Virus record (IMG/VR): IMGVR_UViG_3300007734_000524 | Location: 1-26,152 of that record | Strand: one strand, 5' to 3' | From: a virus | DNA: 26,152 nt | In this document: piece by piece, positions 14,977 to 21,699 of the stretch | Position numbering within the stretch: position 1 is the stretch's first letter | Layout of the letters: every line of letters starts with the position of its first letter | The notes under the pieces: generated by a model | What the model was told of the DNA's origin: nothing | What the model saw: the letters and a program-made list of their open reading frames with translations, nothing else | Databases searched by the model: none | Position numbers and translations under genes: made by a program

Positions 14977-16084
14977 GACGGATGCACCCTCGCTCAACCG
15001 CAATTTTTACCACGTCAGATTTAATCTCGCACCCGCGCGCCAAGCGCCCCAGCCGGGCTGCTGCTAACAGCGTTGTGCCGCTGCCGGCAAACGGATCAAG
15101 CACAAGGTCGCCCGGTTTGGTCGCGTGCCTGATGTATCCCTCAATCAAGCCGTCAGGCTTTTGCCATTGGTAGACGCGCTCAATCGAGCGTGCAGGATGC
15201 GCCATGTCTTGCGATGCGCATAACTCCGTTAGCAGCGGGCAGTCCAGCTCGCCAGCATCTGAGCCAACAAAATATAGCACAGCCTGATAATTTAAGAAGT
15301 ATTGCATCTTGGGCGCTGGCCCCATTGTGTTGCGGTATGTCCATGTCAGCACCTGAGCCAGCGGTAAATTGTGACGCTCGCAAACGTTTAGATAGGCTCG
15401 CAACTCTGCCGGATATGCGCCAACAAACACATAAGCTCTGCCGGTCGATTTTACTTTTCTCCATGCCAATGGCAGCCACTCTACAAACTGGCTGATGTCT
15501 GGCACGTCTGTCATAAATGGCGGGTCTGTCAGTAGCAGGTCGCATTGTGGCTGATGCTTTATCCACTGCAATGCATCAGATTGTTGGATGATAGGCGCGT
15601 CTGGTCTTGCGCGCATTTGCTTGCCAATTTTTACGCGCTCGTCTCGCACCTTTTCCTGCCGCATGTATTTGAGCACCTCACTGACCGTCTGCACGCCTTC
15701 GCGCACCTGCTCAAACTGGTGCATCGGCATGGCCGCCAGCTGCTGCGCCATCACGCTTAGATTTTTGCTAATTCCTATATCTTTTAGAGTTGGCAAAGTA
15801 TAGTCCTGATCGCGGACTATACTTTTTTTAGGCTGCCCAACTTTAGCTCTATCTTCCCCAACAGCCAGCATCTCGCCCAGCTTGCGCAGCGCCTCAATCT
15901 TGATCGCCAGCGCGTAGGCCATTGCCTCCTCGCCCAGCTGTTGCCGGCGCGCGTAAATCTGCGCGGCGTGCGCCATGTCCATCACCTTCTTCGTCTCGCC
16001 GATTGTCTTGGCTTCTGCCAGCGCGGTGCGCGCCCGGTCAAGCTGCACCACCATCAAATCCGCTTTTATGGTTTTGTCGTTCAT
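14969..16084 (-). CDS. DNA methyltransferase (DPPF type) with helical N-terminal domain
   Basis: A 371-residue protein. The N-terminal 140 residues are helical: AKTIGETKKVMDMAHAAQIY, LAIKIEALRKLGEML, then TLPTLKDIGISKNLSVMAQQ, a segment often found in phage proteins joined to methylases or ParB domains. The C-terminal methylase has motif IV DPPF (187-190) and the AdoMet motif DPFAGSGTT (about 330-338), suggesting an adenine-N6 enzyme. The start at 16084 is preferred over 16096 since GGAGACCAAC, the shared leader of the window, precedes it. A perfect inverted repeat (15795-15825) lies in the linker between KKSIVRDQDY and the second helical block. Probable role: protection of phage DNA. Confidence 0.88.
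   Translation of the reverse strand: MNDKTIKADLMVVQLDRARTALAEAKTIGETKKVMDMAHAAQIYARRQQLGEEAMAYALAIKIEALRKLGEMLAVGEDRAKVGQPKKSIVRDQDYTLPTLKDIGISKNLSVMAQQLAAMPMHQFEQVREGVQTVSEVLKYMRQEKVRDERVKIGKQMRARPDAPIIQQSDALQWIKHQPQCDLLLTDPPFMTDVPDISQFVEWLPLAWRKVKSTGRAYVFVGAYPAELRAYLNVCERHNLPLAQVLTWTYRNTMGPAPKMQYFLNYQAVLYFVGSDAGELDCPLLTELCASQDMAHPARSIERVYQWQKPDGLIEGYIRHATKPGDLVLDPFAGSGTTLLAAARLGRLARGCEIKSDVVKIAVERGCIRHE
15795..15825. repeat. Perfect 12-bp inverted repeat inside methyltransferase gene
   Basis: Arms AAAGTATAGTCC (15795-15806) and complement (15814-15825) with a 7-base spacer. On the plus strand the second arm runs into a T-tract, so it resembles a terminator in the opposite direction; no plus-strand gene is seen to need it. 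It encodes part of a linker (SIVRDQDYTL), A/T-rich relative to its surroundings, and does not break the frame. Confidence 0.9.
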
Positions 16085-16103
16085 GTTGGTCTCCATTGTG
16101 ATT

Positions 16104-17094: not shown

Positions 17095-17115
17095 CATGGT
17101 CTCCAGTATAGGCTA

Positions 17116-18413: not shown

Positions 18414-18464
18414 GTTGGTCTCCTGTAATCTGCAGTTATTTCCATTTCGGACATCACTCTAATC

Positions 18465-20000: not shown

Positions 20001-20015
20001 GATGGTCTCCTGTGT

Positions 20016-20410: not shown

Positions 20411-20429
20411 GGTGGTCTCCTTGTGTTTA

Positions 20430-20457
20430 AGTATATGCGCCCTTGTCAAGTTGTCAA
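20430..20457 (-). promoter_or_regulatory. Strong promoter (TTGACA-16-TATACT)
   Basis: -35 TTGACA (20457-20452) and -10 TATACT (20435-20430), spacing 16. The promoter contains a second TTGACA copy 8 bases closer (20449-20444), i.e. the direct repeat ACTTGACA twice, which could be a regulator site or alternate -35. It lies between the end of the 164-residue gene (20459) and the 53-residue gene. The -10 and following TTAA are shared with the promoter at 21514-21543. Confidence 0.75.
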
Positions 20458-20953: not shown

Positions 20954-20965
20954 AGTGGTCTCCTG

Positions 20966-21169: not shown

Positions 21170-21189
21170 GTTGGTCTCCTGTTGCTAGT

Positions 21190-21456: not shown

Positions 21457-21513
21457 GTGGTTGGTCTCCCTTTCGTTGTCTGCCGGGCTGCTTGTGCTGC
21501 CCTCTATGTCTTA

Positions 21514-21543
21514 AGTATACAGGCAAGGTTAGCAACTTGTCAA
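21514..21543 (-). promoter_or_regulatory. Strong promoter (TTGACA-18-TATACT)
   Basis: Perfect -35 TTGACA (21543-21538), -10 TATACT (21519-21514), spacing 18. Transcription should start near 21507, about 50 bases before the 75-residue gene. It shares TTGACAA and TATACTTAA with the 20430-20457 promoter. It drives the early operon leftward. Confidence 0.8.
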
Positions 21544-21621
21544 GCGTTTTGCCCTACGAGTTTCGCCTATAAAACAAGGCATTTTGCGCAGTTAGAACAC
21601 CTGTTCGAGTTTTACCGGCTT

Positions 21622-21656
21622 AAAATGCAACGCGCGCACCGCTGTGGATGCGCGCG
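21622..21656 (-). terminator. Hairpin terminator after the winged-helix gene
   Basis: Arms CGCGCGCA (21656-21649) and TGCGCGCG (21638-21631), with a loop containing a further CC/GG pair. On the minus strand it is followed by TTGCATTTT (21630-21622), a moderate U-tract. It would end transcription of the lysis/fibre operon (and the candidate small RNA) before the early promoter at 21543. Confidence 0.65.
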
Positions 21657-21684
21657 CGCAATGTCTAGGAGACCAATCGAAGAC
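21622..21684 (-). ncRNA. Candidate antisense small RNA to shared leader
   Basis: A transcript from about 21684 to the terminator at 21622 would be about 62 bases. It contains the exact complement (21667-21676) of AGGAGACCAA, the leader found before eight genes (16084, 17094, 18413, 20000, 20410, 20953, 21169, 21456). The other copies point the opposite way, and no gene on the plus strand follows this one. The RNA would have a single-stranded 5' end with the complement and a 3' terminator hairpin, the typical layout of a trans-acting small RNA. An extended -10 promoter lies at 21691-21699. Inference from sequence only. Confidence 0.45.
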
Positions 21685-21690
21685 GCTCTC

Positions 21691-21699
21691 AGTATAGCA
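21691..21699 (-). promoter_or_regulatory. Extended -10 promoter TGC-TATACT
   Basis: On the minus strand TG (21699-21698), C, TATACT (21696-21691). Extended -10 promoters do not need a -35, and none is seen at 16-18 bases (ACGTGC or similar). It overlaps the gap just after the winged-helix gene stop at 21703. The same TATACT hexamer is used by both strong promoters nearby. Confidence 0.45.

Follow-up and report, generated by a model that had tools for sequence, protein, structure and literature searches.

A candidate phage small RNA whose hairpin loop is complementary to a leader repeated before eight genes

The 26,152-bp virus record IMGVR_UViG_3300007734_000524 of IMG/VR, probably a fragment and referred to below as the window, contains a gap 3' of a winged-helix gene in which a small phage RNA, about 60–66 nt in length, is likely encoded. 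This RNA would block translation of a set of non-structural genes that carry a common leader. The proposal is built on the sequence itself: the repeated leaders, a single copy complementary to them, the architecture around that copy, and its conservation, with covarying stem pairs, in a distant relative.

The core of the leader, GGAGACCA, is present in eight copies on the minus strand (Table 1) and one copy on the plus strand, at 21668-21675. Shuffled sequence contained a mean of 0.48 and a maximum of three copies, and none of 100 shuffles reached the observed number. All eight minus-strand copies have an ATG directly 3' of them and stand at the ribosome-binding site, in agreement with the first-pass annotation of this DNA, which had described eight genes with a common leader just before ATG. 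The leader AGGAGACCAA overlaps the Shine-Dalgarno sequence of these genes, and is absent at the other 23 gene starts examined in the window. All eight genes belong to the module that is flanked by the head/packaging genes on one side and the winged-helix/phosphoesterase genes on the other. They appear to be non-structural, judging from position and annotation; the sole product among them that is named by Pfam or PHROGs is a DNA methylase. The called reading frame of the methylase begins four codons too early, which places the leader within it, and the true start is probably the ATG at 16084. The product of gene 20000-19251 has no match in Pfam or PHROG.

Read on the minus strand, the gap 3' of the winged-helix gene consists of TGCTATACT GAGAGC GTCTTCGATTGGTCTCCTAGAC AT TGCGCGCGCGCATCCACAGCGGTGCGCGCGTTGCA TTTT. 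It holds the only reverse-oriented copy of the leader, beside an extended -10 promoter element (TGCTATACT at 21699-21691), both of which had been recognized earlier. The motif TGnTATAMT has only two sites on the minus strand of the 26 kb, the second of which is located within the terminase gene. The promoter element is followed by a gap of 6 nt and then by the G that is the predicted first base of the transcript, where a stem-loop begins at once. The apical loop UUGGUC and the UCCU of the 3' arm together form UUGGUCUCCU, the complement of AGGAGACCAA. The first-pass annotation had placed this antisense in a single-stranded 5' tail, which does not agree with the predicted folds, as these put it in the loop and upper stem of the 5' hairpin. 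The terminator that it had described was found in part: a GC-rich hairpin at 21660-21626 is followed by TTTT, but the U-tract is short and the terminator weak. Reading the reverse copy as a plus-strand ribosome-binding site, already dismissed by the annotation, was rejected here as well, since no start codon lies within range on that strand in the window. In a comparison with the Rfam covariance models, including that of the C4 antisense RNA family, the element remained unmatched at E up to 1.

The reverse copy (21667-21676) is complementary to two leaders at 10 of 10 positions, to five at 9 of 10 and to one at 8 of 10, the range reported before. Calculated duplex energies for the eight leaders lie between -15.2 and -17.7 kcal/mol (mean -16.7), against a mean of -8.4 kcal/mol at the 23 other starts (Mann-Whitney p 2e-5), which sets the eight apart from every other examined gene start. 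With shuffled antisense sequences, the control suggested by the first-pass annotation, none of 1000 equalled the real antisense. When the cost of unfolding both RNAs is included, net energies of -9.6 to -12.6 kcal/mol remain in the window and of -6.1 to -9.7 kcal/mol in the distant relative G001 described below; pairing with the anti-Shine-Dalgarno of 16S rRNA yields -6.4 to -8.5 kcal/mol. By copy counts, duplex energies and net energies, the complementarity thus exceeds chance. The predicted duplex spans the Shine-Dalgarno sequence, with its end at the start codon or close to it, a geometry that would be expected of a translation block. YUNR is the U-turn motif of fast-pairing antisense loops, and the start of the loop, UUGG (CUGG in G001), fits this motif.

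A search with the terminase yielded intermediate relatives, among them G001 (IMGVR_UViG_3300027649_000009, 31 kb), which is syntenic with the window at about 50–65% protein identity across most shared genes. At least 13 ATG codons of G001 are preceded by a GGAGACCA leader, and a reverse copy exists at exactly one site, 12177. This copy is at a different locus, upstream of a 60-residue holin-like gene and not 3' of the winged-helix gene, and its site reads TGCTATACT TATTCT GTAGTCGGACTGGTCTCCTGCTAT GGCTCATAGGCCGCG... The layout is that of the window: TGCTATACT, a 6-nt gap, a stem-loop starting with G and presenting the antisense in loop and arm in the same register, and a GC hairpin. Both elements are about 66 nt long with two compact hairpins each, and the 14.5 kb of G001 that were examined contain a single extended -10 motif. 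Three of the seven stem pairs are altered on both sides between the two and still paired, while YUGGUCUCCU is unchanged. In the hairpin register, 92.9% of cells are paired with three double changes, compared to at most 60% and one when the register is slid, counted on a gapless alignment of 24 nt only, as MAFFT misaligned the full-length elements. The pairing region is therefore conserved with covarying structure, from two distinct sequences, and the promoter in its intergenic position is kept, at the sequence level, in two lineages. Comparison with related phages had been named as a check by the first-pass annotation, and promoter, antisense and hairpin indeed recur in G001 with compensatory stem changes. 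We regard this recurrence as the decisive evidence for a putative small RNA.

To estimate how often such a layout arises, 2.9 million viral contigs were scanned for TGCTATAMT-N13-18-TNGTCTCCT. Fifty contained it, and only in three near relatives of the window and in G001 is it accompanied by leaders repeated ahead of start codons; a chance match in G001 is therefore of the order of 1e-5 to 1e-4. The 46 other contigs with a promoter-spaced TNGTCTCCT showed no repeated matching leaders in the stretches examined and were treated as chance background, and sixteen-base matches in bacterial genomes were likewise judged to be chance. When the related loci were searched with a covariance model of the stem-loop, no additional convincing copy emerged.

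The three near relatives, IMG/VR records L004/L175, L005/L073 and L149, carry the leaders and an identical element. In two of them the 66 nt of the predicted small RNA have no differences, compared to means of 4.5 and 2.7 in nearby windows of 66 nt. The leaders too are better kept than their 5' flanks, with differences at 1 of 40 versus 17 of 150 positions in L073, and 0 of 40 versus 10 of 150 in L175. The leader is also found before genes that differ between the genomes, e.g. at L005:8834.

We propose that the RNA would be transcribed from its own extended -10 promoter and terminated at the GC hairpin and short U-tract. Its 5' stem-loop may present UUGGUCUCCU for a loop contact with AGGAGACCAA in the leaders, followed by strand invasion. 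Pairing over the Shine-Dalgarno sequence would then block ribosome access, such that the eight non-structural genes are lowered together, probably as the phage passes out of its early phase.

Table 1. Positions in the window of the candidate small RNA, its parts and the eight leaders
Feature	Position	Strand	Remarks
Extended -10 promoter element TGCTATACT	21691..21699	minus	no good -35; identical in L004, L005, L149 and distant G001
Predicted small RNA, ~60-66 nt	21619..21684	minus	intergenic; predicted start G21684, 7th base past -10
5' stem-loop GUCU-UC-GA-UUGGUC-UC-CU-AGAC	21663..21684	minus	22 nt, predicted folds; presents antisense
Antisense UUGGUCUCCU	21667..21676	minus	complementary to common leader AGGAGACCAA; loop includes YUNR sequence UUGG
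GC-rich hairpin and TTTT, terminator-like	21622..21660	minus	U-tract short
Leader GGAGACCA	21462..21469	minus	gene 21456-21229; duplex -17.7 kcal/mol
Leader	21172..21179	minus	gene 21169-20966
Leader	20956..20963	minus	gene 20953-20459
Leader	20413..20420	minus	gene start ~20410
Leader	20003..20010	minus	gene 20000-19251; RecT-like by eye only
Leader	18416..18423	minus	gene 18413-17919
Leader	17097..17104	minus	gene start 17097/17094
Leader	16087..16094	minus	DNA methylase gene

A parallel may be found in the cluster K mycobacteriophages, in which start-associated sequences (SAS) were described in 2011, leaving open whether RNA or protein binds them (Pope 2011, PMC3203893). Their role was still called unknown in a 2024 paper (PMC11373665), and no partner RNA is proposed in the papers examined (PMC3203893, PMC11373665). 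In both systems, many non-structural genes have an over-conserved motif at their ribosome-binding sites, and a single copy in reverse orientation lies apart from gene starts. They differ in the motif itself (the 13-bp consensus GGGATAGGAGCCC in cluster K, the leader AGGAGACCAA here) and in the mycobacterial hosts of cluster K, with no homology seen to the present phages; moreover, the cluster K reverse copy is within a larger structured region. In Angelica the reverse SAS is at 58634 (L322 33635), and in Anaya, Adephagia, Niklas, Enkosi and Murucutumbu it is located in a gap of some 385 bp in which no gene is annotated. In K1/K5-type phages it occupies a hairpin loop of this unannotated gap: CTCCTATCCC is invariant in an alignment of seven phages, and according to RNAalifold it forms part of the apical loop, on a stem with pairs changing on both sides. 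The copy of Adephagia, at about 58685 (L328 about 440), is inside the gene 92-93 gap, in which late transcription "appears to initiate" according to published RNA-seq (PMC11373665). Unicorn, Bryler, Sunflower1121 and Ekdilam keep the hairpin with two mismatches to the SAS in the loop, the loop of Shandong1 diverges more, and ShedlockHolmes and Yuna have no match in the loop, all of which weakens the parallel. Because of these altered loops in other subclusters, cluster K offers a strong lead that the same principle is at work there, but no proof. We do not claim common ancestry. That the present lineage and cluster K independently evolved a repeated leader with one antisense-loop hairpin RNA, for joint shut-off of non-structural genes, is a tentative idea that we hold to be possible rather than probable. 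The Microbacterium cluster EF phage AnnaSerena, with an SAS-like GGGAAAGGACCCC, gave no support, as it has no reverse copy and only a 9-nt partial match in a terminator stem.

Two further observations concern the cluster K region. A 201-bp stretch of it has matches in 159 Mycobacterium phage records. Angelica gene 92 (L322 33504-33851) overlaps the structured region and may be spurious, as most cluster-mates checked annotate no gene there.

Several points weigh against the small-RNA reading. The element is present in only two independent lineages; G002 (a 24.8-kb fragment) has leaders of the form GGAGACCAAACC and G003 (a 15-kb fragment) has GGAGACAA leaders, with no reverse copy in either fragment. 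Only two distinct sequences enter the stem comparison, the result of which was equalled in 52 of 500 shuffles. In the near relatives, 7% and 19% of the 66-nt windows are equally unchanged, for which reason the full conservation of the element there is by itself weak evidence. The second hairpin of G001 is without a canonical U-tract or terminator, and the G001 element could be the 5' untranslated region of the holin-like gene that follows. Of the small RNA as first envisaged, the leaders and the architecture of promoter, antisense and hairpin hold, recurring in G001 with compensatory stem changes, while the single-stranded antisense does not and the terminator is weaker than supposed.

As the U-tract of the window is short and G001 lacks a canonical terminator, transcription may continue into the next gene. 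The antisense stem-loop may belong to a longer transcript, such as the leader of a neighbouring and possibly late operon, and act from there. The weak terminators, the position of the G001 element immediately upstream of the holin-like gene and the cluster K hairpin in a gap where published RNA-seq places a late-transcription start (PMC11373665) all favour this reading. We nevertheless consider it rather unlikely, given that the next gene in the window has a strong TTGACA-18-TATACT promoter of its own and that both elements are compact two-hairpin units of about 66 nt. It is improbable that the leader is just a strong ribosome-binding site or the site of a phage RNA-binding protein, with the reverse copy coincidental. 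The Shine-Dalgarno core within the leader and the record of repeated start-associated sequences without a known partner (PMC3203893) would suit such an explanation, but the matching promoter-plus-hairpin context at unrelated loci of two lineages, its compensatory stems and a chance rate of about 1e-5 per contig for the layout argue against it. Least probable of all is an RNA that activates or buffers, as a decoy for a leader-binding factor or by protecting leaders from nucleases: the direction of the effect is not readable from sequence, but the predicted pairing covers the Shine-Dalgarno itself, which normally blocks initiation.

Some additional features were seen in the window and in other contigs. 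The leader-gene module has near-consensus promoters, TTGACA-N18/N16-TATACT, on the minus strand at 21514-21543 and 20430-20457. Several leaders of G001 (L170 1429-5697) share longer upstream modules (CACCGCGTAAGCGGCCACCTTCAAAGGAGACCA; GGCCGCGCGCC in hairpin form), like the extended start-associated sequences of cluster K. In G003 (L174), at least four genes are preceded by the leader variant GGAGACAAA, and a matching antisense UUUGUCUCC is predicted beyond its 15-kb fragment. An unrelated 56-kb phage contig (L180 1194-1224) combines TGCTATAAT with a TTTGTCTCCT stretch and a strong intrinsic terminator; no matching leader is repeated in the vicinity, and the contig may encode another small RNA.

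Bacterial small RNAs with CU-rich loops pair through an anti-Shine-Dalgarno stem-loop with the ribosome-binding sites of several mRNAs. The present stem-loop likewise presents a sequence matching several such sites; those RNAs are host-encoded and general, whereas here the match extends into the phage-specific ACCA beside the Shine-Dalgarno. P1 C4 and P4 CI are phage RNAs that pair with phage mRNA, and to our knowledge the phage small RNAs described to date mostly have a single target. The sar RNA of P22 blocks translation initiation of a phage mRNA (PMC12197685). The candidate resembles sar, lambda OOP and C4/CI in being a phage RNA predicted to pair with phage mRNA. These have one or two targets, mostly encoded opposite, whereas here one RNA in trans would match a leader that precedes eight to fourteen genes.

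The element thus probably encodes a new phage small RNA that would act on a regulon of several genes with a common leader, and would represent phage antisense regulation in a new form. Its recurrence in a distant relative suggests that one RNA may be able to lower an entire group of viral genes together. If true, one RNA matched to a module-wide leader would constitute a translational regulon within a virus genome. The question of the purpose of the SAS, posed in 2011, would then become directly testable in cultured mycobacteriophages, the hairpin carrying the reverse SAS being predicted to pair with the SAS found at the other genes.
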